Of a stretch of 37,795 nucleotides of DNA, positions 15,790 through 34,800 are shown piece after piece. Positions within the stretch are counted from its first letter, which is position 1. Each line of letters opens with the position of its first letter. A program made the position numbers and the translations under genes. The notes under the pieces were generated by a model, which made no database searches, was not told the DNA's origin, and saw nothing but the letters and a program-made list of their open reading frames with translations. The DNA comes from a virus, in the IMG/VR virus record IMGVR_UViG_3300047510_001496, positions 1-37,795 of that record; one strand, written 5' to 3'.

Positions 15790-15810
15790 TCCTTAACTTG
15801 GTACTCTTTA

Positions 15811-15824
15811 TCTAAATATTATAA
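15811..15824 (+). promoter_or_regulatory. Late-type promoter, leaderless geometry
   Basis: TCTAAATATTATAA runs directly into ATG 15825. The T of TAAATA (15813) is 12 bases before the ATG, and the expected transcription start is about 15824. There is no Shine-Dalgarno, and a pyrimidine-rich stretch (CTCTTTATC) lies just upstream. Confidence 0.65.
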
Positions 15825-18800
15825 ATGGCATCTTCCACAGAAAGTAACGTTCCTTTGAATTTTAATCAATGGTCTGCCCGACAATTAGCAATAATACCCG
15901 GTTCAGAACAAAGAGAATATTCTAGATATTTAATAGATTGGTATAAGAACAAATCTACAGAAAAATCTAGAAATCAAGACGCCATCAAACAAGACTATGT
16001 TCAATTAGTTAAAGATTTAAGCTTTTTATTCGGTCAAGCAGAGAAAGATCGTTTTCTAGCAGATGTAGATTATACAAACGAAGAAGAATTGATATTTTCT
16101 GTACCGTTTTTTGCTCGCAAATTAAAAGAAATATCAAAAGTTTTATCGGCTAAAAGGGAAGCAATTAAACAAGCTAAAATCAAATATAATTTAATAGGTT
16201 CTAATCAAGGTTTAGAAACTCTTTTATACGAATACATGCTAAAGGGGTTTACAAAAAGAGAAGGCACCATAACCCAAGTACCAGCACTTCCTATTCAAAA
16301 TATATTTCCAGAACTTTCTGCTATTAAAGATAACTTTTATATAGAAATTGAAGAATTGCACGACCCCTCAACTTACCATGATTCTGATCCTTCTGTAGAT
16401 ATACAAAATTATGTATCCTTAGAAGATGTTTTAAATGCACCTCCCTTCGACGACCCTAATTTAACAGATGAAGAAGTCTTAAATTTATTAACTTCTAGAT
16501 TTTTGCCTAGAGTAGCGCCTACTCCATTGTCTAAAGTATTTTTCGATTATCTATCAGCGTTAAACACAAATGACATTTTTTCTATAATTGATACATATGG
16601 TGCAACTCAAACCATTACAAATGAAATAGTTGGTACAGAAAAATATCTAGGAGAAACTGTTTACGGGTTAACTGCTATAAGATTAAGAGAAATTTCTACA
16701 GCAGATCAGGTTTTATCTTTAGATTTACAAGATGGAAACAATTGGTTCTATTGGCCAAGCGGTACTCAAATAGTAGAGCCTTATAACTTTAACAATTATT
16801 TTCAACCTATATTAATAAATGATTCTAATTTCATATCAAGCAGTGCAACTGGTGGTACAGATTTTAGCAACTCTGATCTTATTTTTACAGACAAAAGTGG
16901 AGTTGTTGAAGGTGCATGGTTGAAAGGAGTTACGGAAGAAAATTCAAAAACACAAATACAAATAACATTACCTGGTGGTACTACAAAAGAATTCATGTTT
17001 CCTTTTGTAGGATTCAGATTATCTACAAGAGGATTTGGTTGGGATGGTTATGCCTTTAACGATAGTTATTTGCAACAATTTAATTTACTACCTTATTCTC
17101 AACAAAAACAATTATTAGAAACCTATTATACTACCAATTTACCTAATTCAGCTGCATATCCAGTTTATTTAAATCAAACTCAATTAAGAAGATTAGGCTT
17201 TTCTAACATATTTTTTGATCAAGCAGATAATATTTTAAAACAAGGTAAAAGAAGTGATATTCCAGACGTATACAGCGATGCTTTAAACGACCCTACAGAA
17301 CAAGCGTATTTGTATAGATTTATAAGAACGGACATTCCCATAGAAACTGGAGCAAATAGTATTTTATGGCCTATATCAAAAATAGCAGAAGACGGTAATT
17401 TACCTATAACTGTAACAGAAAATGATAATTTACCAACTAGACTATCAGAACACGATCCTTCTATAGCAATGTTGGGTGCAGTTGGTGGTTTATCGTTTAG
17501 CACTTCAGATGTTATATATCGTTTAGATTCAAGATCTGGTGATGAAATAGAAGCTGCGTGGTTACGTGCAGGTGATGTATCTTTCTTAGATTCAACTAAA
17601 AATACTATAGAAGTATATAATACATCGGCTGTAGAATGTGCTGTTCCTATAACTGGTCCAGTTCAATTAGGATTACATTTTAGAGTCGAGAGTGGTACTA
17701 AAATGTCTTTTGTTTGGTGTGGACCTGACACATACGCAGATGAAGTAATATATGCATATTCTCATAGTGCTGATTGTCCGTATACAAAAAACGGTCCACA
17801 TAATTATTATAGAAACCAAGACTTTAGCAACCCAGGACCCTTAAACTCAACATTACAGTATGAAAAATGTAATTGCCGAGCTGTTAAATACTCGCCTATA
17901 GGCCATGCAGGTTCTGTCTTTACAGATTACAATGGAATGGCGGATGTTATATTTGCAGACCCTCAAGGATTAGGGAATGAATTTGCAGTAAACTCATGGA
18001 GAGACACTAGAGGATTTAATGTTTACAACAGTCCTCAGTTTGCATTTTTCCAATTAGCAAAAAAACCAAGTTCTCAATATGGTGAACTTATAGGACAACC
18101 TTCTCTTAACTTTCCTACCAATGAGAAAGATATTAGATGGGTACAACCCCCAGGTACAGAAGAATTTGTTGATTATGATGATGACGGTATAGATGATAGA
18201 TACCAAAGATATCCTGGTGATAAAGGAGAAGGAGAATTTAAATTCTATTCAGACGAAGAGGTAGGATGGGGTCCTGGTAAATGGTTAACTAGCGCAGGAA
18301 CGCGTATGGTTTTAAAAACTGGCAGAAGATATACATATTATAGAACTTCTTTACGTAAAGGATCAAACACAGCTCCTTACTTGGTTGTAAAATATCCTTA
18401 TAAAGAAATCAATTCTTTATTATGTGATGGTGCTTGTTCTGATATAGTATTTGTTTTAGATGCTAGCTTATCTCAAACATATGTTTTTGAAACTGTTAAA
18501 AACATTGTTAAACAAATTTATAATGTTTTATTACAAAACGCTCAACATCAATTAGGTTTAGTTGCTTTCAATCAAGACGCAACAACAATTTCATATTTGT
18601 CTCAAGATGCATTTGCTTTGAGATTATTAACATCCTTATTATCTCCTTCCGGCAAAACTAATATTACAGATGGATTGTTATTGGCTGAAGCAATTTTAAC
18701 AACAAGAATACCGGAAGAATCTATTGAAAATAATGATTTATTCGCTTTATGTCGCCAATTAAACGTAACCATAGCAAGTTGTGGTGCTGGCTCTGTTACT

Positions 18801-21116
18801 GTTAATGAACCTCGCAATTCTTGTAGAAAACGTATTATCATATTCAGTGATGGCGAGGCAAATATAGAACAAGATTCTGTTATCACAACAGCTAACAGAG
18901 TAAAAAATAATGGAATAGAAATTATTTCAATAGATATAGGCACATTAGGGTTATTCAATAATAACATGGAAGAAATTGCAACTAACTCTGACCTTTATTT
19001 TAATCTACAGCAATATCTTTTAAACAATGACGGAGACGACAATTCTTTTGCAAACTTTATAGCCCAACTTATTTCAGATTGCCCTCCAATTAAACCAACT
19101 TGGTGTAAGGCTATAAAAGGTTCTACTGGTGAGTGGATAGAGACCAATGAAGTTTCTGATATGATCCTATATCCCGGAGATTATTTAAGTTATACTCACC
19201 AAGGAGGAGTTTTTTATACAAGCCCAGTAGACTCTTCCACAAATTTTAATCAAACCGGTATAGATTTTACAATTAATGTAAAACTCAATGGATGGGATTA
19301 TACAACAAACACATTTTATGCATCTGCATACGGTTCTAGATTTGGATCAAAACCTTTTTGGGGAACCGCATATAATGTATACGACGAAGACAATAGTTAC
19401 TATAAAGAATCTATGGCATTCGGTGGTCATATAAGATTCTTTAATGATTATGTACCAGTTAAACAACCAGAAATTTCTCCATTAGTGTTAGAGAACGGAA
19501 ATTTAATAAAATATACTAATAGGTCGCCAAATAACTTAAATTGGCAAGAATACATAGACATCAAAATTACAGATACAGAACGTAGATGGAATAAAATTGA
19601 GTTTTATAAAGATGTTTCCAATTTAGCAAATTTATTAAAAGTAAACAATCTTGATGTTATAGCATATCCATCAATGGAACCAAGCACCTTAACATTAGAA
19701 AGTTATTCTCAATTTAAACCAGCTTACTATAACTACTTTGCACAAAATAGTTTTAAATTTAATCAAGATTTATTTTATGCCGATAGGTGTGAAAATAGTT
19801 TTGTAATTTTTAATTCCGCGGTTATCATTAATCCTTTAACACCTTCTGCCAATTTAGACAATAGATTTTATCCAACTATAGCATCTATATCATATCCCCA
19901 TTTAGCTGTAAGTGAAAGGCAGGTAGGGGAATATATGGTACCAGATACTTTAGGAACTCCAACTTGGAGAGGCAGAGGATATAAAAACTTTATAGACCCA
20001 AATCGTGTATCTATTTTAGAAGCTGCAAGTGCGGAAGAAGTGTTTTTAGACCTCAACAAATACAGTAGTAGAAATAGAGGATTAACTAAAAAAGACCAAC
20101 TATCACCAATTACAACTTATAATATAAGCAATGATTGGATTGCAGAACCTTATAGTGCTTGCGGAAAAGCCGGTGTTATATTAGGTACCAAAGAAAACCA
20201 AAAATTCACACCTTATCAAACTAGTTACGAAATTTTAAATAAAAATTATTACGGAATAACTAGACAAGAAGATTCTTTTGAATTCTGGACACCAGCCAAT
20301 CCAGCAACTTGGAATGAACCTGTCAAATATCCTTTAACTTTTAGAAAAGAATTAGAAGCAGCAACTTATAAAAATCGCATAGACAATTTATTGGTTAATA
20401 AAGGAAAAATGTCCCAATGGAAAACTGATATTTTTGGATATGATTACGGATTATTTAAAAAGTCAGACAGAAATGATCCGTTTTTTAATGATGTAGTATT
20501 ACTACTTCCTATGAACGCTAATTTTCAAGATTTTTCAAAAAGCGCAAATAGTATATCGATTTTTGGCACACCTTCAATAGTTCCATTTTCTCAACGCCCA
20601 GATAATGGAGGATACTTTGATAGCAGCGGAGATTACTTGTCAATTAGTGATACACCAAATTTGGGACTCGGGACTCAAAACTTTACCATAGAAATGTGGA
20701 TATTTAAATCAACAGCACTAGTAAACTGGAATGGTATATTTGAGCTTGGTACTGGTATAAATCCTTATCAAAACGGGTTAATGCTCAGACTACAATCAAC
20801 TACAACAGATTCATTGTACATAGCAAATGTTGCTTATAACTGGTCTCCTTCTTCCAACTTCCCATTAAACCAGTGGAACCATTTAGCTCTGGTAAGAAAT
20901 GGTAATAGTTTCACAGTATATGTAAACGGTAATAGTGTACTCAGTGTAACTAACAGCGCCAATTTAGGTTCAACATCACGAATAACTATAGGTGCAAGCG
21001 CACATTCAACAACTCAGGGGTTAGATGGTTTTATAGACGATTTTAGAATCACAAAAGGAATTGCAAGGTATACGACAAACTTTACCCCACCAACAAACCA
21101 ATTCCCAACTTCATAA
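15825..21116 (+). CDS. 1763-residue structural protein with vWA and LamG domains
   Basis: A giant protein, not matched to a single T4 gene. The N-terminal 150 residues are helical (SARQLAIIPGSEQREYSRYL and following) and may be the particle-binding part. Residues 783-794 (DYDDDGIDDRYQ) resemble a thrombospondin type-3 calcium loop. About 873-1060 is a von Willebrand A domain: DIVFVLDASLS with MIDAS D879-S881-S883, GKTNITDGL with T945, and IIIFSDGEAN with D1009, then a strand IEIISIDIG. VSDMILYPGDYLSY (from 1110) recurs in the protein at 31853. Residues 1556-1763 are a Laminin-G-like domain ending DGFIDDFRITKGIARYTTN, nearly the same as the end of the protein at 31825. I infer a baseplate- or tail-tip-anchored adhesin with metal-dependent and sugar- or protein-binding modules. 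Confidence 0.75.
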   Translation: MASSTESNVPLNFNQWSARQLAIIPGSEQREYSRYLIDWYKNKSTEKSRNQDAIKQDYVQLVKDLSFLFGQAEKDRFLADVDYTNEEELIFSVPFFARKLKEISKVLSAKREAIKQAKIKYNLIGSNQGLETLLYEYMLKGFTKREGTITQVPALPIQNIFPELSAIKDNFYIEIEELHDPSTYHDSDPSVDIQNYVSLEDVLNAPPFDDPNLTDEEVLNLLTSRFLPRVAPTPLSKVFFDYLSALNTNDIFSIIDTYGATQTITNEIVGTEKYLGETVYGLTAIRLREISTADQVLSLDLQDGNNWFYWPSGTQIVEPYNFNNYFQPILINDSNFISSSATGGTDFSNSDLIFTDKSGVVEGAWLKGVTEENSKTQIQITLPGGTTKEFMFPFVGFRLSTRGFGWDGYAFNDSYLQQFNLLPYSQQKQLLETYYTTNLPNSAAYPVYLNQTQLRRLGFSNIFFDQADNILKQGKRSDIPDVYSDALNDPTEQAYLYRFIRTDIPIETGANSILWPISKIAEDGNLPITVTENDNLPTRLSEHDPSIAMLGAVGGLSFSTSDVIYRLDSRSGDEIEAAWLRAGDVSFLDSTKNTIEVYNTSAVECAVPITGPVQLGLHFRVESGTKMSFVWCGPDTYADEVIYAYSHSADCPYTKNGPHNYYRNQDFSNPGPLNSTLQYEKCNCRAVKYSPIGHAGSVFTDYNGMADVIFADPQGLGNEFAVNSWRDTRGFNVYNSPQFAFFQLAKKPSSQYGELIGQPSLNFPTNEKDIRWVQPPGTEEFVDYDDDGIDDRYQRYPGDKGEGEFKFYSDEEVGWGPGKWLTSAGTRMVLKTGRRYTYYRTSLRKGSNTAPYLVVKYPYKEINSLLCDGACSDIVFVLDASLSQTYVFETVKNIVKQIYNVLLQNAQHQLGLVAFNQDATTISYLSQDAFALRLLTSLLSPSGKTNITDGLLLAEAILTTRIPEESIENNDLFALCRQLNVTIASCGAGSVTVNEPRNSCRKRIIIFSDGEANIEQDSVITTANRVKNNGIEIISIDIGTLGLFNNNMEEIATNSDLYFNLQQYLLNNDGDDNSFANFIAQLISDCPPIKPTWCKAIKGSTGEWIETNEVSDMILYPGDYLSYTHQGGVFYTSPVDSSTNFNQTGIDFTINVKLNGWDYTTNTFYASAYGSRFGSKPFWGTAYNVYDEDNSYYKESMAFGGHIRFFNDYVPVKQPEISPLVLENGNLIKYTNRSPNNLNWQEYIDIKITDTERRWNKIEFYKDVSNLANLLKVNNLDVIAYPSMEPSTLTLESYSQFKPAYYNYFAQNSFKFNQDLFYADRCENSFVIFNSAVIINPLTPSANLDNRFYPTIASISYPHLAVSERQVGEYMVPDTLGTPTWRGRGYKNFIDPNRVSILEAASAEEVFLDLNKYSSRNRGLTKKDQLSPITTYNISNDWIAEPYSACGKAGVILGTKENQKFTPYQTSYEILNKNYYGITRQEDSFEFWTPANPATWNEPVKYPLTFRKELEAATYKNRIDNLLVNKGKMSQWKTDIFGYDYGLFKKSDRNDPFFNDVVLLLPMNANFQDFSKSANSISIFGTPSIVPFSQRPDNGGYFDSSGDYLSISDTPNLGLGTQNFTIEMWIFKSTALVNWNGIFELGTGINPYQNGLMLRLQSTTTDSLYIANVAYNWSPSSNFPLNQWNHLALVRNGNSFTVYVNGNSVLSVTNSANLGSTSRITIGASAHSTTQGLDGFIDDFRITKGIARYTTNFTPPTNQFPTS

Positions 21117-21154
21117 TTTTAGTTAATTATTGGAGTGTAACCTATAATCCTTGC

Positions 21155-21171
21155 TCTAAATATTAAACATA
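21155..21171 (+). promoter_or_regulatory. Late-type promoter before giant structural gene
   Basis: TCTAAATA (21155-21162) followed by TTAAACATA and the ATG at 21172. The expected start is near 21168, giving a leader of about 4 nt. It has the same TCTAAATATT core as at 15811 and 31839. Confidence 0.6.
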
Positions 21172-24100
21172 ATGAATCAATTTCGACAGGCATTTTTTAT
21201 TTCTCAAGTAGGCACTTGGCCTAATGAAATTTTTGTCATTGCTCCTTCTACACAGTTTATTGATCCGAATTTAGGATTTTTACCTATAGATAATAATGTT
21301 TTTTATTTAAACAATACTTTAAATAAAATAGACAATGCATTTTTACCTATAGGCACTAAACCTATAGGCATAAACAGCTTAAACGGTTACTCATTTATCG
21401 ACAGTCAGGTAGGCTTGAATGATCAAGGGTTTTTACAATTAGATTTTAACCCAAATTCTTATCTAATATGGGACGTTGGTTCTGTAAGAAAAAATTTTAA
21501 TACAGGACCTCTGTATAACATGAATCAAATAGATGTAAAACCCGGAGCTAATTTTGATTCGAAAGATTATTTTGGTTATTTAATTTTCCCAACAAGAATA
21601 TGTTTAAGACCAGAAAGATTGACATTCTCTGGCGGTAATTGGGTATTATCAACTCGTACGGTAGTTAGAACTGCATCTACGTTTTTTACATACAGTTCAA
21701 CTATGGATTTAGTTCCATATGATGTTTACCAAAGATTTACGTCAAGACCGCCGGTAACCGCCGTAGTACCCGCAGGATATACATTAACATATGACCTATG
21801 TGCAAGTAGAACACAAACACTAAGACCTGTAATAGATTTTACCAGTACATATAACCCAGAATACGTTTCAATTATATTAGAACCACCAAATTGTCGTATA
21901 CGTCCCGATTCAACTGCAGTATTTTATAATGTAGAATATTATTCTATAAGTCCAGACGACTTTTTATCAGAAGCTATTGATTTATCTTTTGATCCACCAA
22001 TCTTTTTAAACGCCAACAGCCCTTTCAGAACATCGTATCTTTTTAATTATGATCCTTATAAAGACCCAACAAGGCAATATTTCCAGTTAATACAAAGAAT
22101 ACCGCCCAATATAAACACTTTCAGACTTAGTGAATCCGGATTTAGCGTTTTAAGTGCTGTATTTGATTTTAATACATCTAATTTCAGATATTTTAGTAAT
22201 TTCTTCTTAAAAAGAGAAGGTACAATTTTTACACCAGTCAACACCTTAACAGGTATAGAAGGTACAAGCATAGCTCTTAACTATATAGTAGATTGTCCGA
22301 CCATTCAGCTTACAAATGAACCAGCTAAAACTGGAGCATCAATTTCCGGTGCAGCTAATACTTTTGGTGTACCTGTTGCAACTGGCCCAGCATTAATTTC
22401 AAATACATTTTCAACAAAATATCCTCCACACTTTTACTCATACAGAGTATCTGTTAGTTCTTCAACACTATTACCAAAACCAGAATACCTAGAAACTGAC
22501 ATATTATCTTTCTACCTAACAACATCTGCTATATCTGGTACAACCACATCAGTCACATTATCAACATTTATCGCATCAGATTTTAATTTCTTAACATACG
22601 ATCTAGGAACCACTAGCCCCAACGACTTAATAAAATATACAGCAGTTGAATCTGACCCTGTATTTTTATCTGCGTTAAATTGTTTTTACGGTCTTAATCA
22701 AAATTTATCTTATAATATTTTTAATAGTCCGTGGGTACCATTAGTATCTGCAAAAATGTTTTCAATATCGTATCCGACTATTGAGTATGGTGAAATTAGC
22801 TTTGCTTTAAAAGCTACAGTGTCTTCTGTAAACGGATTTTTAGATAACAAAATTATAAGACCAATAACATTAGCTTTAGGCTTACCTCCAGCAGATCCTA
22901 GACCTCCTTTCACTATTAATATTGTAGATGAAGGAGAGGATTTTATAGAAGTAGACGCCTCTTTTATTAATGCAGAACAGTTTTACCCTTATCGTGATTT
23001 AACAGATAGTGTCATCTCTTGGACTATAAGTCCTACTAGTCAATATACTTCTATAAATTCTATAGACGTCGACGAAAATCCTATACAATTTATCCCTTAT
23101 TTAAGTGCGATCCTATTTAATGAAACTACTTGGACTGTAAGAGTTTCTGGGTTTGGACCACAACCAACAGTAATCACCCTTTCTTCGCAAAAATATAATA
23201 TTACAACCTCTGTAACCTCAAACTCTGGGTTGTTTAACTTTTTCGCAGAAAATCGATTTTTAGTTGGTCCTGCTATACCATTAAACAATTTAAATGCTAC
23301 TAGAACTATAAGACTCACAGCAGCTGTGCCATATAAAGACAGAGTATATGAAATACCTCTTAATACTTCCATGAATTGGGCATGGACTTATGACAATCTT
23401 ACTTTGGCAGAAGAGCAACCTATTGAAGCGTTTTATGTAGGTCAATCTGGAACGTTCACTCTTGGAGAACAAGGCCTATCACAAAACATTAGCGCGCTTA
23501 ATTTTAATATCACACCAGCATTTGCAAATTTATTTCCAAATGTTCACAGAGTCAATATAACCGCATATTCTTTTGCTAACATACCTCCTATAGAAGGCAG
23601 TTACGGATTTGATGTTGATGATTTTCCAGACCCTTCTATTTTTAATACAGATTTTACAACAGCCTATATAAACGGTTTACAACCTATTATAGCAGATACT
23701 AGAAAGGGTATAAATGTTGTTACTAGAGCAGTTTCAAGTAGTAACAGTTTTACATTGACAGGCAACAGAGACATTCTCCCAACTATAGTAGTACCTTCAA
23801 ATGGTTCTATAGTATGGAGTGTTAGTAACAATGTAGCAGGATTAGTATCAACAAATTCATTTGCATCAGGTATTGATGTATTTTTTAGACTTAATTTAGC
23901 AACAGGTACTATTAGAAGAGAAAATTTAGTTTCATTAAGTGCAATCAATTGTATAGCTCCTGGATGGACTAGTGCGCATAGTGTACAGGCTAATACAACA
24001 TTTTATATGTTACCTGCTAGAGAATTTACAACTCCTTTAGCTTTTAATCTGTATCCGACATATATTTGGCAAGGGGGACCTTATCTTACATTATTAGACA

Positions 24101-26949
24101 ATGCAAACTACACATTAGCTACTGCACCTACAGCATATGCAAATAAAATATCAAACACACAAACGTATGCAGTATCAACCAGTTTTCCAAACCTTTTCAA
24201 TAGATATCTTTTTGAAGCAAACAATACAATATTTTCTATATTATCATCTTCAACAGGCATCTTAGACATTCCTTATTATCCGAACATTTATAGTAATAAC
24301 GGTCTAACAGTTTCTATTACAGCATATGGTAAAGAATTTCCGCAAATTTTAGGCACAACTTATGTAGATGCGTTTAATCGAACTTGGACCTATCCGAATT
24401 ACGGTCAAACTTTAAATTTCAATACAATATTGCCAGGCAGATTACAACAACGCAGCCCTAAAGTAATTCCATACGACAATCTGTCTTTAACTTTTACACC
24501 AGTCTTCACATCGATAGATCTTGATAATAATAGATTTATTTCAGTCATTCAAACTATTAGCTCAAACAATAATCCGACAGAACAAATCCCAAGTCTCGGC
24601 ACAGTAACATATATTTTATCAACCAACAATTGGACTAGTGAAGCAACAGTACCAGCAATCAACGGTTTACAAAATGTTTATTTTCTAAATGTAGGAGATC
24701 CTTATACAGAAGGTAATGTATCTGGTACTTCTGTTAATACTATCTATATCAAGGCTTCGGCTTCAATACCAGTTAAAATACAACCTACAACGTTTAATGC
24801 TTACGACAATACTCAATATCAAGAGAATAGAGATTTATGGGGGACCGTAGAACAATCAATTTCAGCCAATGCTCAATGGACTACAATAGTCGCATATAGT
24901 ACGTCAACTAATCCAGAAATTTATCTTTCAGACTACTACACAACAACCGGCAATCGTGTGTTGGTTCAGTTTAGTACACCAGATCCAATTAATTTATCAC
25001 CAACTACCACGGTTTCTACGTATTTTGTTAATTTTGGAGAAGAAGAGACGTTTATGGTAATGCCATCCGGTTTTTATTATTACCAATTTAACAGAGTAGG
25101 GACTTTTTACGCGGCATATAGTGCTGTTTATCTTAACGGATTTGTAAGAAGCTTTAATCTTAATATACCAGTAATAGTTAAATCGTCTTGGCCAGAATAC
25201 AATCAAGAGGATGTTCGCATATTAGACGAAACTAGGTTAACTCTGCCTTATAGTATAGACGATGTTGAAATACAACCTAACGAGTGGGGAGATTTAGATA
25301 TTTTCAATACAGCTATGAGTCGTATTTACGACAATCTTGAATACCTTAAAAACAACAGTAGAACAATTAATACAGATGCTCCAACAATTTATTATGGATG
25401 GTTAGGAGCAAATCAAAATTTATTATCTCAAGGTATAAGATGGTTTACTCAAACCTATGGTAATAATTATTATTTAAATGCGGCGGCAGCAACAGGTGCA
25501 ATAAATTGCAATAATCCTCGTCCAAATTGTAAACAGCCAACATCTTTCTTCTCTCAAATAAACGGATTAGCGGCGTCATCAGACCATATATTTGTATTAG
25601 ACGGATTGAGGATAAGAGCTTTATCTTCTGGTTATATTCCAGTTGAAGCTCGCTTTACAAATATGAGTCAAATTACCGCTTTATTTGTAACTCCTAAATC
25701 TCTAGCTATAGATGAGACTGGGTTAAAACTTTATACGGTAGATTTATCAAAAAACCAAGTATTTAAATTTGATGTTGATATAACCTCTTCTGTATCTTAT
25801 CTCAACGTGTCAAATGCTATAGGAGGATTTGGTTATCGTCAAGATTATAATAAATTCAATGCACCTTCTGAGGTAGTATACAACTCTAATAATATTTTTG
25901 TATTAGATTTTAACAACTATTGTGTTAAACATTACAATGCCGATTTAAACTGGTTGTATACGTATTACTCTACAGTTTTTGATACAACACGACCAATCGC
26001 AATAGTAGCCCACCCAGCTCAATTGTTATATGTATTAACCGACGATTATAAATTACACATTTTTGAATATTTTAAACCCGAACCTATTCAGACTTTAATT
26101 TTACCAGAATTAGAAGCTCTTATGGTTGGTGCAAGACTATTCTCACCAAATGTTAAATTGATATTAGATGAACCAGGAGAATTTTTATACATAGTCACCT
26201 CAAGCCAAATCTTTAAATATACAGCTACAGGATATTTCTTAACAATATTGAATATACCAGATTCATCTTCTATTAACGGATTTACAGACGCGACAGTAGC
26301 GCCTAACCGTAATGTATTGTTTTCAACACTTAATTCAATTATTAAAACTCAAGATATTTTAGAAATATTTAAAATAGGTGAAGGGTTACCTACACACTAC
26401 TGGAGTAAGGATCAAATATTAGTAAAGCGTCAAGAAATGGCACAAGACACAGTTTACAATAGAGCTTTAAAACGTATGGCTCAAAATATGAAAACTTTTA
26501 GAGATAATATGAATTCTAAATTTGTTATTAAAACTGAAATAACAGATATAGGAGCAATATCATATTTTACATTGGAACCTATAGCAGCTAACAGTTTACC
26601 AGTTTTAGATACAGACGTAGAAAATGAAACTTTATTTGTGGGAGTAAATGAATTACATATTCCTCAATCCATCAACAAAGAATTAATTAAATTGTATAAT
26701 AGCTTAAACATCTTATCAGACATTTTAACTGTAACTAATACAGGATCAGACACGACAGAAGGGTGTCCCGAAGCGTTCTGTTGGTCATGGAAAGCGACAT
26801 CTTGTTATAACCTTAAATTACCTTTAATTCGTGTATGTGGTATAAACCCCATTACATATGACGAATTGAAATTTAATTTCCCAGTCAATTATGCCCCTTC
26901 AAAAATATGGGGAAGAGCAACTTCTGATTGTTGTAAAGATTTTACATAA
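21172..26949 (+). CDS. 1925-residue structural protein, beta-rich, with propeller and Cys-rich tail
   Basis: The largest protein here, not recognised as a T4 homologue. About residues 1-1350 are Ser/Thr/Asn/Tyr/Pro-rich with short hydrophobic strands, consistent with a chain of beta-sandwich (Ig/PKD-like) modules, though I see no crisp repeat. About 1460-1680 contains propeller-like blades: HIFVLDGLRIRAL, KLYTVDLSKNQVFKFDVD, NIFVLDFNNYCVKHYNADL, LLYVLTDDYKLHIFEY. Then comes a helical stretch (KRQEMAQDTVYNRALKRMAQ, about 1755-1775) that may anchor to other virion parts, and a Cys-rich end (CPEAFCWSWKATSCYN, then CC near the C-terminus). No signal peptide. It probably forms a long, exposed arm. 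It has its own late-type promoter, and the 92-base gap after it carries the promoter of the fibre gene. Confidence 0.7.
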   Translation: MNQFRQAFFISQVGTWPNEIFVIAPSTQFIDPNLGFLPIDNNVFYLNNTLNKIDNAFLPIGTKPIGINSLNGYSFIDSQVGLNDQGFLQLDFNPNSYLIWDVGSVRKNFNTGPLYNMNQIDVKPGANFDSKDYFGYLIFPTRICLRPERLTFSGGNWVLSTRTVVRTASTFFTYSSTMDLVPYDVYQRFTSRPPVTAVVPAGYTLTYDLCASRTQTLRPVIDFTSTYNPEYVSIILEPPNCRIRPDSTAVFYNVEYYSISPDDFLSEAIDLSFDPPIFLNANSPFRTSYLFNYDPYKDPTRQYFQLIQRIPPNINTFRLSESGFSVLSAVFDFNTSNFRYFSNFFLKREGTIFTPVNTLTGIEGTSIALNYIVDCPTIQLTNEPAKTGASISGAANTFGVPVATGPALISNTFSTKYPPHFYSYRVSVSSSTLLPKPEYLETDILSFYLTTSAISGTTTSVTLSTFIASDFNFLTYDLGTTSPNDLIKYTAVESDPVFLSALNCFYGLNQNLSYNIFNSPWVPLVSAKMFSISYPTIEYGEISFALKATVSSVNGFLDNKIIRPITLALGLPPADPRPPFTINIVDEGEDFIEVDASFINAEQFYPYRDLTDSVISWTISPTSQYTSINSIDVDENPIQFIPYLSAILFNETTWTVRVSGFGPQPTVITLSSQKYNITTSVTSNSGLFNFFAENRFLVGPAIPLNNLNATRTIRLTAAVPYKDRVYEIPLNTSMNWAWTYDNLTLAEEQPIEAFYVGQSGTFTLGEQGLSQNISALNFNITPAFANLFPNVHRVNITAYSFANIPPIEGSYGFDVDDFPDPSIFNTDFTTAYINGLQPIIADTRKGINVVTRAVSSSNSFTLTGNRDILPTIVVPSNGSIVWSVSNNVAGLVSTNSFASGIDVFFRLNLATGTIRRENLVSLSAINCIAPGWTSAHSVQANTTFYMLPAREFTTPLAFNLYPTYIWQGGPYLTLLDNANYTLATAPTAYANKISNTQTYAVSTSFPNLFNRYLFEANNTIFSILSSSTGILDIPYYPNIYSNNGLTVSITAYGKEFPQILGTTYVDAFNRTWTYPNYGQTLNFNTILPGRLQQRSPKVIPYDNLSLTFTPVFTSIDLDNNRFISVIQTISSNNNPTEQIPSLGTVTYILSTNNWTSEATVPAINGLQNVYFLNVGDPYTEGNVSGTSVNTIYIKASASIPVKIQPTTFNAYDNTQYQENRDLWGTVEQSISANAQWTTIVAYSTSTNPEIYLSDYYTTTGNRVLVQFSTPDPINLSPTTTVSTYFVNFGEEETFMVMPSGFYYYQFNRVGTFYAAYSAVYLNGFVRSFNLNIPVIVKSSWPEYNQEDVRILDETRLTLPYSIDDVEIQPNEWGDLDIFNTAMSRIYDNLEYLKNNSRTINTDAPTIYYGWLGANQNLLSQGIRWFTQTYGNNYYLNAAAATGAINCNNPRPNCKQPTSFFSQINGLAASSDHIFVLDGLRIRALSSGYIPVEARFTNMSQITALFVTPKSLAIDETGLKLYTVDLSKNQVFKFDVDITSSVSYLNVSNAIGGFGYRQDYNKFNAPSEVVYNSNNIFVLDFNNYCVKHYNADLNWLYTYYSTVFDTTRPIAIVAHPAQLLYVLTDDYKLHIFEYFKPEPIQTLILPELEALMVGARLFSPNVKLILDEPGEFLYIVTSSQIFKYTATGYFLTILNIPDSSSINGFTDATVAPNRNVLFSTLNSIIKTQDILEIFKIGEGLPTHYWSKDQILVKRQEMAQDTVYNRALKRMAQNMKTFRDNMNSKFVIKTEITDIGAISYFTLEPIAANSLPVLDTDVENETLFVGVNELHIPQSINKELIKLYNSLNILSDILTVTNTGSDTTEGCPEAFCWSWKATSCYNLKLPLIRVCGINPITYDELKFNFPVNYAPSKIWGRATSDCCKDFT

Positions 26950-26955
26950 TTTTAA

Positions 26956-26998
26956 GAAGGTTAGGATAAATATTATAAATTCAAGATTAGTAACCTTC
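26956..26998. repeat. Inverted repeat flanking the fibre-gene promoter
   Basis: GAAGGTTA (26956-26963) and TAACCTTC (26991-26998) are perfect 8-base inverted arms with the TAAATATTATAAAT element between them. A second small hairpin, CTGAT/ATCAG (27014-27018 and 27022-27026), lies in the leader. It could be an operator-like site or mRNA structure, and chance is possible. Confidence 0.4.
26965..26978 (+). promoter_or_regulatory. Late-type promoter with a long leader
   Basis: GATAAATA (26965-26972) within TAAATATTATAAAT, the same 14-mer as at 15825 and 31853 but not followed by an in-place ATG. The fibre gene starts 75 bases after the T, at 27042, so the expected leader is about 64 nt. Confidence 0.55.
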
Positions 26999-27041
26999 AG
27001 TAATGAACGGTTCCTGATAAAATCAGAGACTTGAGAATAAT

Positions 27042-29675
27042 ATGAGCAATAGATTTCACAGTAAATGGCATCGTAGGAATCACCACACCTACACAAATCC
27101 AACTAATCCAGATGCAGGGCATGACCCTATAGCCAGCCAACAGCAACCTTTTCTAGGAGAATTTGTTTTATTTGGCACTTTAAGTTGCTGGGCTCCGTTA
27201 AGTTCTTATGCTGGAGGTTTCTTTTCTAATAACACTTCTCTCTGCGCTATAGCAGGTTATCGCGGTTTATTTGTTCAAGCCCCAAGAGTTGGTATGGAAA
27301 TTAAATCTAATTCCTTAGCAATTTCTGCATATTCCGAAAGACTTGGAATGAGTATAGATGCTTCTATCGGCACAACAGGCAGAGCAATTTCTGCAACCGC
27401 TTCAAATATAGGTTTAGACATTTGGTCGAATAATGTAGCCATTTCCGCGCAAGGTAATAGAATTGCTATAGAAGCAGAATCTATAGTTAGAGCGATTTCT
27501 GCTTATGGTGGATTTATAGGAGGAGAGTTTGCTTCTGCTAGTAGGGCAATATCTGCATATTCTCCTTATATTGCTGGAGAATTTGGTTCTGCTAGTACAG
27601 CGATCTCTGCTCAAGGCTCTAGAGTAGGTATTGAGGTTTATTCTAGAAATGATGGAATATCAGCATATGGTGGCAACGTTGGTATAGAAGTATATTCTCC
27701 TTTTAGAGCAATATCTGCATTTGGTGATACAGTTGCTTTAGAAGCATATTCTTACCGAACTGCAATTTCTGCGTTTAGTAATACTCTAGGAGCTTACATA
27801 TACAGTTCTCTTACAGGCACTTATGTTGAAGGTATGTCAGCTGGTGCCATGATTAGCAGCCCTATGGTTTCTCTTTCAACTGGAGGAGGTGGGTATAACG
27901 TCCTTAATAGTAGAACTGGTATCTATTGTATTCCAATGGAGAAGGATGTAGTAGGTACTCCATTTACACCAGTTTTAGCAGTTAATGGTAACTCATATTT
28001 CGATGGTGGAGTTACAATTACCGGAGATTTATCAACTCTTGGAAGAATGTCTTATTTAGATACCAAAGTCGTTATCACTAGTTCTCTTTACATTGAGAAC
28101 AAAGGTACAGATGCGGCTGCAACTGTTATACAAGAAGGTGCTCAACCAATTTTAGTATGTTATGATAAAGATGTAAGTCTTGGAATAGCCTCGTTTATTG
28201 TAGATGGTGCGACCAGTGGTAATGTAGGTATCAACACAACTCAAGCTCAATTAGTTAATAGTGCAAAATTATCTATTATAGGAAATGTGGCAACCAATGG
28301 TAAAGCATTAAGTGCTGTAGGTGAAATGTGGGTTGAAGGAGAAGTAGATCTTAACGTAACTGGTAATAGTAATACCAACGTTAATACAACAACTCCTTCG
28401 ACTACCGTAACAGTCGGTCAAGATGGTGCAACTCCTACAAATATAAACGTCAACGGTAATACCACAGTTTTAGGTACAACCCAAGTTAATAGAACCGGTA
28501 GTAAAAATACAAGTATAGGCAACGCATCCAGCACAACAACAATTGATGGACCTACCAATGTTAATACTTCGATTAATAGTAACACTAACATCAATACAGG
28601 AACTTCAACAGGTACTACAACTATTGGCAATGCATTAGCAACAGTTGTGGTCGCTGGCGATACCTCCATCAATGCTAGTATTGCAGATAACACTAATATC
28701 AATACAGGATCTTCAACGGGTACTGCAACTATTGGTAATGCGTCTGCTACAGTAGTCGTAGCCGGTGATACTTCCATCAACGCTAGTATTGCAGACAACA
28801 CCAACATTAATACCGGAAGTTCTACAGGTACTGTAACTATTGGTAATGCAGCCGCAACAGTAGTCGTAGCCGGTGATACTTCCATCAACGCTAGTGTTGC
28901 AGACAACACCAACATTAATACTGGAACATCAACAGGTGCAATTTCGATCGGCAATAGTTCAGCAGGTGCTATAACAGCAACAACCGGTTCTACAGCAACA
29001 ATTACAACTGGAAGTACTTTAAATATTAACTCCACTACAGGTCGTATAACTAATATCAACTCAGGCACCGGTGCAACAACTAATATCAACACCGGCACTG
29101 GAGCAGTTACAACAACCATAGGAAATAACACAGCTTCAAACTTAACAACCATAAGCAGTCCAAGTGTAACTGCACCAAATCAAACTTATGTAGATAGTAG
29201 TTCAGTTATTACAGGTTCCTTAGGAGATACTCGATACGGTAATATAGTAGACCAAGCATTAACAGCCAACTCTGCTGCAGATTCAGATAACACATTTACA
29301 GCAATAGCGACAATTACCTTAGAAGCAAATACAACATATGAGATCAACTCTATAGCAGTAATATCAACAACAACAACCGGAGGTTCTAAGGTTCAGTATG
29401 GATATAGTGGTGCTACAGCAGTAGTTGCTATATCTGAACAATATTATTCTTCAGCAGCAACGACTACTAATAGTGTAACCTATCAAGGAACTACTCTACC
29501 AGTCAACGCAACATCGCAAACTAGCGCAGCAGCTGCAACCCATACATACACACGAAAAGGCATTATAAGAACAAGTACAGCAGGTAATTTAACCTTAGAA
29601 ACCGCTTTAAATAGCGTAGCAGGAACTGCAACAACCTTAGCCGGATCTTATATATTAGCTAGAAAAATAGCTTAA
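27042..29675 (+). CDS. Long repetitive tail-fibre-like protein, 18-residue period
   Basis: 877 residues. Residues about 93-255 hold nine units that begin (A/G)ISA followed by a G/A/V-rich strand and '.E.YS', spaced by 18 residues (the first interval is 22). About 260-450 is an intervening domain with YFDGGVTITGDLSTLG and GNVGINTT, common in phage fibres. About 505-640 is a second repeat array of 36 residues (two 18-residue halves: TNINTGSSTGTATIGNAS and ATVVVAGDTSINASIADN). The last 130 residues are a Thr/Ser-rich beta domain with EANTTYEINSIAVIS and GSYILARKIA at the end. The pattern fits a triangular beta-helix or trimeric beta-fibre whose C-terminal domain may be the tip. No chaperone gene follows. 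The N-terminus (HSKWHRRNHHTYTNPTN) is basic and may bind the baseplate. The ATG at 27042 has only a weak GAG-type ribosome site. Confidence 0.8.
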   Translation: MSNRFHSKWHRRNHHTYTNPTNPDAGHDPIASQQQPFLGEFVLFGTLSCWAPLSSYAGGFFSNNTSLCAIAGYRGLFVQAPRVGMEIKSNSLAISAYSERLGMSIDASIGTTGRAISATASNIGLDIWSNNVAISAQGNRIAIEAESIVRAISAYGGFIGGEFASASRAISAYSPYIAGEFGSASTAISAQGSRVGIEVYSRNDGISAYGGNVGIEVYSPFRAISAFGDTVALEAYSYRTAISAFSNTLGAYIYSSLTGTYVEGMSAGAMISSPMVSLSTGGGGYNVLNSRTGIYCIPMEKDVVGTPFTPVLAVNGNSYFDGGVTITGDLSTLGRMSYLDTKVVITSSLYIENKGTDAAATVIQEGAQPILVCYDKDVSLGIASFIVDGATSGNVGINTTQAQLVNSAKLSIIGNVATNGKALSAVGEMWVEGEVDLNVTGNSNTNVNTTTPSTTVTVGQDGATPTNINVNGNTTVLGTTQVNRTGSKNTSIGNASSTTTIDGPTNVNTSINSNTNINTGTSTGTTTIGNALATVVVAGDTSINASIADNTNINTGSSTGTATIGNASATVVVAGDTSINASIADNTNINTGSSTGTVTIGNAAATVVVAGDTSINASVADNTNINTGTSTGAISIGNSSAGAITATTGSTATITTGSTLNINSTTGRITNINSGTGATTNINTGTGAVTTTIGNNTASNLTTISSPSVTAPNQTYVDSSSVITGSLGDTRYGNIVDQALTANSAADSDNTFTAIATITLEANTTYEINSIAVISTTTTGGSKVQYGYSGATAVVAISEQYYSSAATTTNSVTYQGTTLPVNATSQTSAAAATHTYTRKGIIRTSTAGNLTLETALNSVAGTATTLAGSYILARKIA
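27318..27815 (+). repeat. 54-bp-period repeats (18 residues) in the fibre gene
   Basis: Nine degenerate units each starting with codons for (A/G)ISA. The protein period is 18 residues from the second unit on. DNA identity is low, so this array is older than the 108-bp repeats. Confidence 0.75.
28560..28970 (+). repeat. 108-bp tandem repeats in the fibre gene
   Basis: Homologous positions recur at 28653, 28761 and 28869, exactly 108 bases apart, with a degenerate first copy from about 28560 and a partial last copy to about 28970. The copies starting at 28761 and 28869 are nearly identical over long stretches. 108 bp encodes 36 residues, so gain or loss of units keeps the frame and changes fibre length. 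Confidence 0.85.
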
Positions 29676-29703
29676 TATCTACAAGTGTATATTAACTTGT
29701 TAC

Positions 29704-29717
29704 AATAAATATAATAA
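29704..29717 (+). promoter_or_regulatory. Late-type promoter, leaderless geometry
   Basis: AATAAATATAATAA directly before ATG 29718. The T of TAAATA (29706) is again 12 bases before the ATG. No ribosome site is seen. Confidence 0.55.
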
Positions 29718-30392
29718 ATGGAATATACCTCTACTATATTTTTAACTACTTCTGGTACGCTTTCTTTAACTGCTACCGCCCCATTTTCTCTAGTTATAAA
29801 TCCTTCTGGTATAAATTGTACAAATAAAATATATAAGATATACTACGACTTTGGTGACGGGTCTTCTCATACACAAACATTATTCCCTGCAAATTCAACT
29901 CTTTTTAGATCTGTAAGTGGTAACTACCCTATTTTAACAGAACCTGGTGACCCTAGAAATTTTAGACAAATAAAATCTTACAATACTAAAAATGCATTTC
30001 AAAATTATAATGTAAGAATAAGTGCATATCAATTTAGTGAACCCCAAGCATACCCTTACACTATTAATTTAAGATTGTCTAGCCCTAACATAGTTTCTGC
30101 AAATAGCGCAATCGGAGTTTTTAGGGATATTAGATTAGCCTCTACCCGTATGTATGGTCCTAATAACGATTTGATTTATATATTTGAAACTACTAATCCT
30201 AATTATTTTTTACCGGTAAGTGTAAATTGGAAACTAAGACCTCAAGAACAATTTGTACAAAGTATTATGAATTATAGAACGTTTAGATTATTAGAACCTT
30301 ATGAAGATGAAAAGGTTACGTCTATAAACACTATAGCAAATATTTCAACGGTTGGAGAAGTATCTGCACTTCCAAACAGAGACCCAGCTTAA
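29718..30392 (+). CDS. PKD-like domain virion protein
   Basis: 224 residues. The N-terminal 110 residues resemble a PKD domain: YYDFGDGSSHTQT with the DFGDG at 44-48 equals the motif in the protein at 11693. The rest (about 110-224) is a beta-rich region with RDIRLASTRMYGPNNDLIYIFE and NYFLPVSVNWKLRP. PKD folds serve as spacers or binding modules in surface proteins. Two bases separate its stop from the next start, and the following protein (LamG) could be its working partner. It starts behind a late-type box. No T4 counterpart is recognised. Confidence 0.65.
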   Translation: MEYTSTIFLTTSGTLSLTATAPFSLVINPSGINCTNKIYKIYYDFGDGSSHTQTLFPANSTLFRSVSGNYPILTEPGDPRNFRQIKSYNTKNAFQNYNVRISAYQFSEPQAYPYTINLRLSSPNIVSANSAIGVFRDIRLASTRMYGPNNDLIYIFETTNPNYFLPVSVNWKLRPQEQFVQSIMNYRTFRLLEPYEDEKVTSINTIANISTVGEVSALPNRDPA

Positions 30393-30394
30393 TT

Positions 30395-31825
30395 ATGTTA
30401 ACTTATAACGATTTACAATCAAACGGAGAGATTTGGATGCGAGCACCTAATGGTGAAAGATATCCAGCTAATCAGGTACTATCTTCAATTTATATAAAAT
30501 ATGATACAGTATCAGAAACTTTTTATAATGATTTGACTAGTAACAGTGTATCTAATTTTGATGTTATATATGATACTTTACACATAACAACAACCGCAGG
30601 AAGTATTTTTGAAAAAATATACGCTGAAAATGGACAATTGCTCCCCCACAACCAATCTAATTTATTCCACCCCATATGTTCTAGCCCTTTAGATTATTGG
30701 TTTTCTGAAAGTAAAAATAAAATATATTACACAGACATCATAGACGTCTATAAAGGATATACTTCATATTCAAACTTATCAGCCCTTCAATTCTTTTTGA
30801 CCTTTAACATATTTGATTGTACTCAAGGCATTACAACCTATAAATCAGCTTATCAAATAACTTTACAACCCAAAACCGGAGCAGATTGGCGTAATAATTT
30901 ATATACTATAGAGACTCCTAAAATTACATATAACCCAGATACATATATTTTTAATATATCATTTTTAATAAAGAATGATAAAAATTTACCAGGCATTGTT
31001 AGTTTAAATTTAAAAGACAATGAAAATTATGATATAATCGAATGCAATACTTGTTTGCCGTATTTTAATACTTCAACTACAGAAAGTAAAGCAGAAAAGA
31101 TATCCTATGAAGAGATACCGTTGGTTTTACGACCACCCGCAGATCCGTATTTCAATAATAATATTTTACTATTACACATGGACGGAGTAAGTGGTTCTAG
31201 ATTGTTTATAGACAATTCACCAACAAATGCTCAAATGCTCACAGCTGGGTTTGTTATGATAGACACCGCAAGATTCAGATACGGCAACGCCTCCGCATTT
31301 TTTAATAGATCTGCTACAACTTCTTTAAGAACCTCAGCAATACCATCAGTATTCAATTTAGGAACCGGCGATTTTACAATAGAAGGATGGTTCTTTTTTA
31401 GAGAAAATAATATAGGATATCAACCTCTTATGTCTTCATACGTAGCCGGAGATCAAACCGGATGGTTACTAACAACAGAAGTTAATCATTTCTTAAATTT
31501 TTACAGTGCTTCGAACACTACATGGAACAACACTGTAGCATCTACAACAAGACCAACACTCAGCACATGGACACATATTGCTGTAACAAGACAAAACGGA
31601 ACTATAAACATTTATACTAGTGGTATTAATGTTACAACAACCAGGACAGGTGGTTCAAATCCGGTAAGATTAGGCAATTTCGTAGCTATAGGTCATTATC
31701 CTTTTTATCCGGCACCTGCAGTCAGAACATTTGACGGGTATATAGATGATATTAGAATTACGAAAGGCGTAGCAAGATACACGACAAACTTTACCCCACC
31801 AACTTACGCTTTTAGTGACTATTAA
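30395..31825 (+). CDS. LamG-domain virion protein
   Basis: 476 residues. Residues 1-250 are not recognised (beta-rich, with a few Cys such as IIECNTCLPYF). Residues 254-476 are a Laminin-G/ConA-like domain: NNNILLLHMDGVSGSRLFID, FTIEGWFFF, WTHIAVTRQNG, then DGYIDDIRITKGVARYTTN. This half is a close relative of the C-terminus of the protein at 15825, including a 23-base stretch of identical DNA (around 31781 and 21073). LamG domains in phages are thought to bind glycans or surface proteins. Start ATG is 2 bases after the previous stop. Confidence 0.75.
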   Translation: MLTYNDLQSNGEIWMRAPNGERYPANQVLSSIYIKYDTVSETFYNDLTSNSVSNFDVIYDTLHITTTAGSIFEKIYAENGQLLPHNQSNLFHPICSSPLDYWFSESKNKIYYTDIIDVYKGYTSYSNLSALQFFLTFNIFDCTQGITTYKSAYQITLQPKTGADWRNNLYTIETPKITYNPDTYIFNISFLIKNDKNLPGIVSLNLKDNENYDIIECNTCLPYFNTSTTESKAEKISYEEIPLVLRPPADPYFNNNILLLHMDGVSGSRLFIDNSPTNAQMLTAGFVMIDTARFRYGNASAFFNRSATTSLRTSAIPSVFNLGTGDFTIEGWFFFRENNIGYQPLMSSYVAGDQTGWLLTTEVNHFLNFYSASNTTWNNTVASTTRPTLSTWTHIAVTRQNGTINIYTSGINVTTTRTGGSNPVRLGNFVAIGHYPFYPAPAVRTFDGYIDDIRITKGVARYTTNFTPPTYAFSDY

Positions 31826-31838
31826 TTTGGTCGTTTTC

Positions 31839-31852
31839 TCTAAATATTATAA
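31839..31852 (+). promoter_or_regulatory. Late-type promoter, leaderless geometry
   Basis: TCTAAATATTATAA directly before ATG 31853, identical over 14 bases to the element before 15825 and preceded by a pyrimidine-rich GTTTTCTC. The spacing from TAAATA is 12 bases. Confidence 0.65.
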
Positions 31853-34800
31853 ATGCCAACAAGTATTAATTCATATGCTTTATCCACAATCTATTGGAGA
31901 CCTATAGATTTTAATGTTGTTGGTAGTGATTACTCTTTAACAAAACAAACTATATACTTTAACAATGGCATGGAATTTAACACATTCAATGCTCTTAAAG
32001 AAGGTAAAGATTTAAATTTCAACAGGAAAACCGGTTTATTTTTAACTAATGTTTTTAATAATACGGGTATTTTTGTTTCAAACGAAACTCCAGATGTAGT
32101 AGAAACATTAACAGAGATAGAAACCCCTTTATATGATGTTTTTAGTAGATTTTCTATATCTCTATCAACTATCAACACTGGTTCAACAGTTTTAGCAAGA
32201 ACCTCAAGTATTAGAATAGATTCTGTTAATACATTAAAATTTATATTCATGGAGGATGACACCAAAGTAATGGTGCAATCTCCAGATGGTTTATTTTTAA
32301 CTAGCGAATCAATGTCAAATTTTGGTTTAACATTTAAAACCAAAATAAGCCCGTTAGGAAGTGCTCAATTATTCGATTACTTTTTAGGTAATAATGAAAT
32401 AACTTTATTCAAATCAGGAACAGACTATACAGAAGTTGTTGCTAGATATCCTAATAACATATACGGATTAGCACCTTATTATTCGATAGGGCGAAATGCT
32501 CCTTTATCTGCGGTTTATCGATTAGGATTTTCATCTGTAAATTTTAAAGATATAGAACCAACTAGTGTAGTTGATAGTAAATTAGTAGAGTATGAAACAA
32601 ACCCCGTAGCTGTAGAAAAATATTTAAAAATTAATAAAGCATATTCTAGTGAAAAATATTATCAAAACTATCTAGGAATATTTCCTTATGAGTATCCTAA
32701 CTATAGTGAAGACAGAGTATTATATCCATTGCAAATACACGGTCTCAAAAACTATCAAACACCAGAATATAATTACAGTATAGCCCCACAAGGCATTTAT
32801 CCTGAAAATAGTATTAGAAGAGATTATACCAAAATATTCTCAGGTACAAATCAAACTAAAGGATACAGTAATGTATATCTCGCATACGAAGCAGATACTT
32901 CATTAATCACATTTCCTACTGATTCGGACGTAGCTTTTCATTTTCCTCCTACATCAGAACCTATTCCTCTCAATTCTCAAAGCTCTAACCCGTCTCATGT
33001 CTATTCTGGTTTAATAGAAGACGGAGCAATTGCTGGTCAGGTACCGTATACGTCTGATAGAATTTATATAAAACATAAAGACTATCAAGAAGATATACCT
33101 GGAATACCACAACCTCCTAATGTTACCCAATACTCCAATACTTGGTTATGTTCTTGGTTGTCGGGAACACCAGGTGGATCTAAAATTTGGATGGATAGAT
33201 TTTATAATGCCGCTTTTTACACCTTAGATGACGCTTTAAGTGCAAAGGTGATGGTTTATAATGACAGGTTAGACATGACTAAAACATATAGTTATGACGT
33301 AGTATCTGATATGATTTTATATCCAGGCGTTTTATATCTTTATCACCATGCTGGAAAAGAAACTAGTAAAGCGTTTTTAACACATTTAGATGAAGACCCT
33401 AGCTTAGAAAGAGGAGCAAAAATTTTACAAATCAGTGCTTGGAATACAGATACACTACAAGATGTGTCGAATTATAATAACGATGGAACCGTATTTTTTA
33501 ATTTTGATGCAAACCGATTTACAAATGGAGAATTTTTAATTTTAAACGGAACTAACCATGCTACCTTTCCCGCAAGGAGCATATTATTACAACCGACCAG
33601 ATTAACCACTTCACTATGGGTATATGCAGAAGATTGGTCTAACATTGAAGGGAACCAAATATTTGGAAATTACTATAATAGTGGATTTGGTTTAATTAAC
33701 GATAGTGCTTTGACAGCTCCTCTATTCACTATAGTCAACAGCACAGACGGAATTGCTTATAATATCAATTATAGATTTAATGCAGTTTCAAATACTAAGA
33801 CAACCTTAATAAGACCTTCAATGTCTGCTACAGGTGGGCCTCGTTTTATATTAAGAACTCCAGATTTAAATTATACAATATTTGATCAATCCTCTTTAAC
33901 TTATTATAGATTTTATCCAGATGGTAGAAGAGACGAAACGTTTACTACTATAAATTTAACACTGAGAGCTGGTATTAGCGCTATTTCACAAGTTGAAATG
34001 GATAGTAATTACAATTATTACATTTATGATAGAAATGCCCGTAGAACCGCCAGGCTAAATCCTAACGGTACTTTCAATAGTGTATCAACAACACCAGCTC
34101 AAAGAGAAAGAATAGAAATAGATCTAAACAATAATTTAATATATACCAATGGCAATACTTCTGTTATAGATAATGATAATAATTTGTGGTACATGGTAGG
34201 TTCAAATTTATATAAGAACAATACTATTTTTGCTAATATAGGAGCTACACAACAAATTTCAATTGATTCAAATAATAATATTTGGTTAGCTCACGGCCAA
34301 GATTCTGTGACCAAAATTAATAGTTCTGGTGTTATTGAATTTACAATCCGAGTTAGTAGACGATCTGGTATACCAGAAGACCCGTGTTTATCTTCACCGG
34401 CATTCGGTAGATTTAGATACATTAATTTTGTTAAACCTCCAGCAACAGTAGGAGCCTGTGATAATAAACCGATATCAAAAGATTTATTGGTTTTAATAGA
34501 CACCAGAGATAATGAAGCATATTTAATTAATGATAGAGGAAATATCTTAGCAAAATTAGAATTACGTTCGTTGGCACAAACTCAAGATCTTCCTCTTTTT
34601 TACGCCGATGGCGATTTTTCAGGATATCAATATCTACGTAAATATGGATTTTTTAATAAACGTTTAGGTTGGAAGCTTAAAATTGCAGAGCCTACAGGGT
34701 TTAACTCTCAAATTCTTTCTCTCAACTATCCTGTGAGCGGTTTAACAAGTGGGTGGCATCATATATGTTTAACCTTTGATGCTACTACCGGATTTGCTCG

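Follow-up and report, generated by a model that had tools for sequence, protein, structure and literature searches.

The window analysed here is the complete IMG/VR record IMGVR_UViG_3300047510_001496, a stretch of 37,795 bases with a GC content of 0.337. It encodes a gp23-like major capsid protein with 33–35% identity to 15 listed Synechococcus, Prochlorococcus and cyanophage records, a protein matching GPW_gp25 in Pfam (E 7.9e-15) and a gp6-like baseplate wedge (phrog_219, E 1e-33), and by these capsid and baseplate genes the phage is an uncultured T4-superfamily myovirus. Searches of the phages collection returned no match to gene 11693 by blastn, nor by tblastn to the 15825 backbone, the N-terminal domain of 30395 or the D4 segment. 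The record starts with a coding stretch rich in glycine (1–318) and ends with a gene (36996–37795) whose final residues, TVPSGVNKLKI, resemble by eye the start of a Gly-rich stretch; because both ends look Gly-rich, repetitive genes of this kind may be where the contig was broken.

Two genes of the window, 15825 (gene A) and 30395 (gene B), end in LamG modules that share an exact 23-bp run. Their placement in the baseplate/tail-fibre region is based on gene order beside the gp25 and gp6-like genes. The features are as follows.

15025–15789, + strand: stand-alone gene, 254 aa, homologous to the fused C-terminal tip of the gene A homologue of relative L212
15825–21116, + strand: gene A, 1763-aa baseplate-region protein with a conserved backbone of ~1,545 residues (38.8% identity to L005) and a C-terminal LamG
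18441–18692, + strand: VWA domain, gene A backbone residues 873–956 (PF00092, E 4.1e-12)
20469–21113, + strand: LamG module A, an exchangeable C-terminal tip (HMM match, residues 1549–1763)
21072–21094, + strand: 23-bp exact run, copy 1, coding for TTNFTPP and the first two bases of the next T codon
30395–31825, + strand: gene B, 476 aa, an N-terminal domain kept in relatives and a C-terminal LamG
30395–31150, + strand: N-terminal domain of gene B, mostly beta (homologues of 221–249 aa; model pLDDT 80.6)
31151–31822, + strand: LamG module B (HMM domain, residues 253–476; PF13385)
31781–31803, + strand: 23-bp exact run, copy 2
31853–35281, + strand: conserved neighbour gene, 1142 aa, used as a probe for syntenic relatives (45 loci, 36–49% identity)

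The preliminary description had held that the two proteins end in homologous LamG domains, and this was borne out by matches to PF13385 (Laminin_G_3) at residues 1599–1743 of gene A (E 3.6e-19) and 316–457 of gene B (E 1.9e-17), with scores of 69.9 and 64.3 bits against a gathering cut-off of 27.6. The two domains share 31.6–34% protein identity, while the N-terminal parts show no significant similarity to each other (best E 1.8), in keeping with the statement that the remainder of the two genes is unrelated. The neighbouring gene 31853 carries a divergent LamG of its own (residues 960–1054, PF13385 E 3.9e-7); by eye, an apparent first LamG half lies at about residues 530–640, seemingly separated from the second by ~300 repeat-like residues, and L005 looks likewise.

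The AlphaFold model of LamG A (pLDDT 78.9, with residues 1–26 below 50; pTM 0.82) matched ConA-like domains in Foldseek with a probability of 1.00 and query-normalised TM-scores of ~0.5–0.6, and LamG A is predicted to be a ConA-like jelly roll. By sequence profile, the LamG A alignment resembles the S-layer protein domain 4qvs (E 4.4e-14), the arabinanase AbnA (5hon, E 8.1e-10) and pappalysin-1 (E 3e-4), and by fold the model resembles 5hon, pappalysin and the pentraxin PTX3. Identity to the listed solved fold matches is 10–20%, and none of those listed is a phage protein; the jelly-roll parts of clostridial neurotoxins and trans-sialidases, which are on the same list, have the fold alone in common with it. 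In the phages collection, 248 records matched LamG A and 228 matched LamG B at E ≤ 1e-5, with the best places all below 60% identity. Both are like the PF13385 domains of tailed-phage structural proteins and are ordinary domains in themselves; what differs from the usual phage PF13385 is that here two of them cap two otherwise unrelated genes of one phage. The model of the N-terminal domain of gene B gave no clear match to solved structures (Foldseek, VIA-align).

To place the modules among related phages, we used 52 relative loci (L005 and L206–L256) found with window genes and window/L005 alignments, which form 28 groups after merging of loci that share a 100-mer. The N-terminal domain of gene B, used as sole query in viral_contigs, found no relatives, and these were reached afterwards via the neighbouring genes. 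L005 and L245 have their 15825, 30395 and 31853 homologues next to one another, without either LamG, and genes 21172, 27042 and 29718 are absent between them. For 30395, the relatives supplied homologues of 20 distinct sequences in 14 groups, all of them without a detected LamG; these homologues are 221–249 aa long, except where they are fused to the 31853 homologue (L226, L225 and L211, one sequence) or truncated at a contig end (L224). Similarly, no LamG was detected at the end of the 15825 homologues in 18 distinct readable C-termini from 17 groups. Since the homologues in syntenic relatives lack them, both LamGs are lineage-specific additions.

The 15825 homologues share the backbone to about residue 1545 (38.8–49.4% identity over best segments) and diverge after it. 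The L005 homologue, for example, aligns over residues 7–1545 at 38.8% identity and stops 30 residues further on, and the VWA domain is present too in the homologue of L209. Beyond the backbone, the following endings were read.

No further tail, 0–31 residues: 4 homologues (L236, L253, L244, L245)
Legume-type lectin: 1 homologue (L222; PF00139, E 4.5e-22)
Ig domains: 3 homologues (L246, L206, L232)
Unassigned domain type: 8 homologues (the L248 copy, with a Gly-rich insert, grouped by eye)
TPT linker and unassigned end: 1 homologue (L229)
Homologue of window gene 15025: 1 homologue (L212, the closest relative)

This slot is hypervariable. On the tree of the 31853 protein (17 rows, 16 relatives and the window), the C-terminal ending changes at least six times; the tree covers 16 of the 18 distinct endings, L206 and L209 having no 31853 homologue in their loci. 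By eye, the ending found in eight homologues had looked ConA-like, an assignment that further comparisons do not establish: an alignment of seven of them, with L248 left out, gave a profile comparison probability of 2.9% and no PDB match at E ≤ 1, and Pfam matched just one of the seven members (E 0.021). Gene 15025 aligns over residues 70–252 with residues 1553–1722 of L212:17009-22177 at 46% identity, an apparent gene-to-tip fusion or fission, and no homologue of it besides that in L212 was found in the 52 loci. One further LamG of this type occurs in these loci, inserted into the N-terminal region of the L218 homologue of 31853 (L218:778-4821; profile match to residues 56–283, PF13385 159–301), a third insertion site in this gene group. 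At the place of the 30395 homologue, L253:8744-13447 has a 415-residue module with a GTSAGTPQWAALLA stretch fused before the 31853 domain; we take this module to be sedolisin-like, and it had no match in Pfam.

A conserved N-terminal part with a C-terminal module that is exchanged between related phages is the arrangement of a modular phage adhesin, and the endings on the VWA backbone of 15825 are a case of modular tip replacement, which is an established mode of evolution in phages. Domain mosaicism in the receptor-binding and baseplate proteins of phages has been well documented (Smug et al. 2023, PMC10684548), and the proteins studied here are like those described there in having a conserved N-terminal virion part and a variable C-terminal module, and in that unrelated proteins share domains; the words 'lectin' and 'laminin' do not occur in the main text of that paper. 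A description of a VWA-backbone family with alternative ends was not found among the titles listed by searches of the open-access literature.

To examine the relationship between the two modules, we ranked and placed them among other LamG domains. Module B ranks 291st of 546 others among the LamG matches of A, and A ranks 172nd of 535 among those of B; most domains of this set had been retrieved with the A+B alignment or the motif, so the ranks do not come from a random sample. The nearest relative found for LamG A lies in another phage, L006, where it occupies the middle of a protein with several LamGs; the two are 54% identical over 211 residues. A is nearer to this domain than to B, although the L006 gene is no orthologue, and the relatives' homologues yielded no orthologous LamG for either gene. 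In a LamG tree whose bootstrap had not settled, A and L006 group with support 99/95 within a seven-row clade (99/99) that does not contain B, and B stands on a long branch for which no sister has support. Constraining A and B to be sisters cost 10.4 log units and was not rejected (p-AU 0.101). By their sequences, A and B appear to come from different LamG lineages and not from each other, and we infer separate acquisition of the two modules, strongly for A and weakly for B.

The 23-base run reported near 21073 and 31781 is exact at 21072–21094 and 31781–31803. The 23-mer occurs exactly twice in the window, 10,709 bp apart, inside the motif ARYTTNFTPPT. The modules as a whole had been called near-identical in DNA, which does not hold: identity reaches only 82% over the 74 nt around the run, in domains that are 34% identical in protein. 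In 100 dinucleotide shuffles of the window, the longest exact direct repeat had a mean of 15.6 and a maximum of 21 bp, and none of the 100 reached 23; the only other exact direct repeats of at least 18 bp in the window are two inside a tandem repeat at 28.7–28.9 kb. When the proteins were held fixed and codons were drawn from the window codon usage (20,000 draws), the probability of a longest shared run of at least 23 was 0.0115. Against this codon-usage null, the run is mildly unusual and not decisive. Mismatches bound it on both sides. Within it, seven of eight codons are the same against 3.4 expected (P 0.010), and both copies share the rare codons ACG and ACC. Directly upstream, 13 identical residues have five codons in common (6.2 expected); the whole 24-residue motif has 12 of 21 (9.6 expected, P 0.20), and the whole domain 37 of 68 (33.0 expected from window codon usage). 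Synonymous divergence outside the run is at background, and for the run itself codon choice gives a P of ~0.01.

The same 23-mer, at the same codons, was found in viral_contigs in two stretches outside the window (L001 and L002), a search that may omit records closely resembling the window. Both carry one identical LamG protein, and their remaining genes, as far as read, are unlike those of the window. The family consensus at the motif is ARYTxNFTPPT (20-row alignment). Among the matches listed, a sample of 79 TTNFTPP motifs, the two of the window included, used many codon combinations; from another search, the best 80 of its 481 matches were used.

Next, we calibrated the run on real LamG pairs, using 557 LamG domains with distinct DNA from fetched loci, including the two of the window. 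Domains shorter than 140 residues and pairs with fewer than 120 aligned columns were dropped from both calibrations, as were between-phage pairs differing in GC by more than 0.04 (bins of whole-domain identity) or 0.03 (classes of identical motif residues). The identity-binned calibration, which used a 12% sample of the between-phage pairs and left the loci of one contig unmerged, additionally dropped pairs with fewer than 25 identical body or 10 identical motif residues (M and W uncounted). The motif-class calibration dropped pairs with fewer than 16 identical motif residues or more than 60% identity, loci sharing a 60-mer and the A–B pair itself.

The A–B pair has 21 of 24 motif residues identical. 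In the class with 20–21 identical residues, runs of at least 23 occurred in 17 of 681 between-phage pairs and, without A–B, in 2 of 46 same-locus pairs (P 0.34). This between-phage rate and similar calibrations place the run as uncommon yet within reach of coincidence, and the rate of 17/681 provides a calibrated control for gene-conversion claims based on the LamG end motif. The corresponding counts were 3 of 63 same-locus against 8 of 2088 between-phage pairs with 18–19 identical residues (P 0.003), the class that accounts for most of the same-locus excess, 0 of 111 against 7 of 4633 with 16–17, and 1 of 9 against 7 of 116 with 22–24. Pooled over pairs with at least 18 identical motif residues, A–B excluded, the counts were 6 of 118 and 32 of 2885 (Fisher P 0.003, the pairs not being independent). 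Binned by domain identity, runs of at least 23 were found at 20–35% in 7 of 2924 between-phage and 1 of 282 same-locus pairs, the latter being A–B by its values, and at 35–50% in 25 of 2687 and 9 of 499.

Codon identity was compared between motif and body in the same bins. It was 0.450 in the motif and 0.452 in the body for the 499 same-locus pairs of 35–50% identity, 0.416 and 0.421 for the between-phage pairs of 35–50% identity, and 0.448 and 0.438 for the same-locus pairs of 20–35% identity; in 21 same-locus pairs of 50–70% identity, codon identity in the motif exceeded that in the body (0.534 against 0.472). LamGs of one locus therefore share long runs somewhat more often than those of different phages, for which a common codon usage and genuine tandem duplication are also possible causes; no clear trace was seen of a process that homogenises the LamG motif in particular.

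Taken together, these results make it probable that LamGs were added separately to two baseplate-region proteins, likely as glycan-binding tips, and that the 23-bp identity is a coincidence of codons. In this T4-superfamily phage, genes 15825 and 30395 would encode structural proteins that belong to the baseplate/tail-fibre region, each composed of a conserved, presumably virion-side part and a C-terminal LamG that, among the relatives, is seen only in this phage. The two LamGs would have been gained separately from a large pool of phage LamG domains, in keeping with relatives that fill the same 15825 slot with a legume-type lectin, Ig domains or a different domain, or leave it empty. From what is known of the family, the LamGs would most likely protrude from the baseplate and bind host surface glycans, with a possible role in host range. 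The 23-bp identity, which sits in ARYTTNFTPPT, the motif that the LamG family conserves best, would then reflect codon coincidence and not a conversion tract.

A short-patch gene conversion or crossover over the last ~25 bases, by which the 3′ end of one module was overwritten from the other, is unlikely in our assessment. The exact identity with its shared rare codons and codon excess is what such an event would leave, and the excess of long runs in same-locus pairs points the same way. Because L006 ends in ARYSGNFAVP, unlike A, the end of A could have been replaced; against this, the consensus is already ARYTxNFTPPT, so that no donor is required for the end of A. A converted tract would measure only ~23 bp, with mismatches immediately outside, the same 23-mer is present in a phage with unrelated gene content, and the 499 same-locus pairs of 35–50% identity lack a motif-specific excess over the body. 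The recent gene conversion that had been proposed for these ends is thus not borne out: with a run bounded by mismatches and codon sharing near expectation upstream and domain-wide, it is not needed as a mechanism. In its favour, same-locus pairs generally reach a run of 23 more often. The accompanying proposal of module swapping is right in a broader sense, in that both LamGs are lineage-specific additions to genes with LamG-free homologues, but they were apparently not swapped between A and B.

Equally doubtful is that one LamG was duplicated inside this phage and diverged over a long time. Both modules belong to the same Pfam family, lie in the same phage and are C-terminal, and the A+B clade was not rejected; however, the 31.6–34% identity of A and B contrasts with the 54% identity of A to the LamG of another phage, and the supported A+L006 pair and seven-row clade without B also argue against it. 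A DNA-level element (a recombination or regulatory site) that LamG modules would retain at their 3′ ends, suggested by the recurrence of the 23-mer in three LamG modules from two phages whose gene contents are unrelated, is highly improbable and largely refuted by the diverse codons of the 79 sampled motifs among the matches listed and by the finding of the exact 23-mer outside the window in only two viral_contigs stretches, one and the same LamG.

With separate acquisition and codon coincidence as the preferred reading, an apparent gene-conversion signal becomes a probable codon coincidence, and the six kinds of ending that relatives carry on one VWA backbone, counting none as a kind, make it possible to ask which ending goes with which host. 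We tentatively suggest that the VWA protein of ~1,545 residues may represent an undescribed family of baseplate 'sockets' with interchangeable tips, that the 30395/31853 junction may be a second socket, holding a LamG here and a protease-like module in L253, and that together they might form the main host-range determinant of these phages.

Other repeats and signals were also observed in the window. A second shared segment of 84 nt, with 74% DNA identity, lies in genes 15825 (18156–18239) and 36058 (36484–36567) and codes for a stretch of the type DxDxD.IDDR.QR.PGD.G, which we take to be calcium-loop-like. Here, 13 of 16 identical residues share a codon against 8.3 expected (P 0.013); the segment had no match among ORFs from the 52 relative loci, nor had the 15825 copy any in the phages collection, and the segment is a better candidate than the 23-mer for a module shared within the phage. 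Genes 15825, 21172 and 31853 each have the sequence TCTAAATATTA just 5′ of their start (15810–15830, 21154–21174 and 31838–31858), and these upstream elements strike us as reminiscent of T4-type late promoters. As a late promoter, CTCTAAATATTA was rejected, since a scan of the window with up to two mismatches gave 13 matches against 14.7 expected, not above chance. Gene 27042 contains tandem 108-nt repeats at 28580–28955, whose units share exact runs of 39 and 25 bp.
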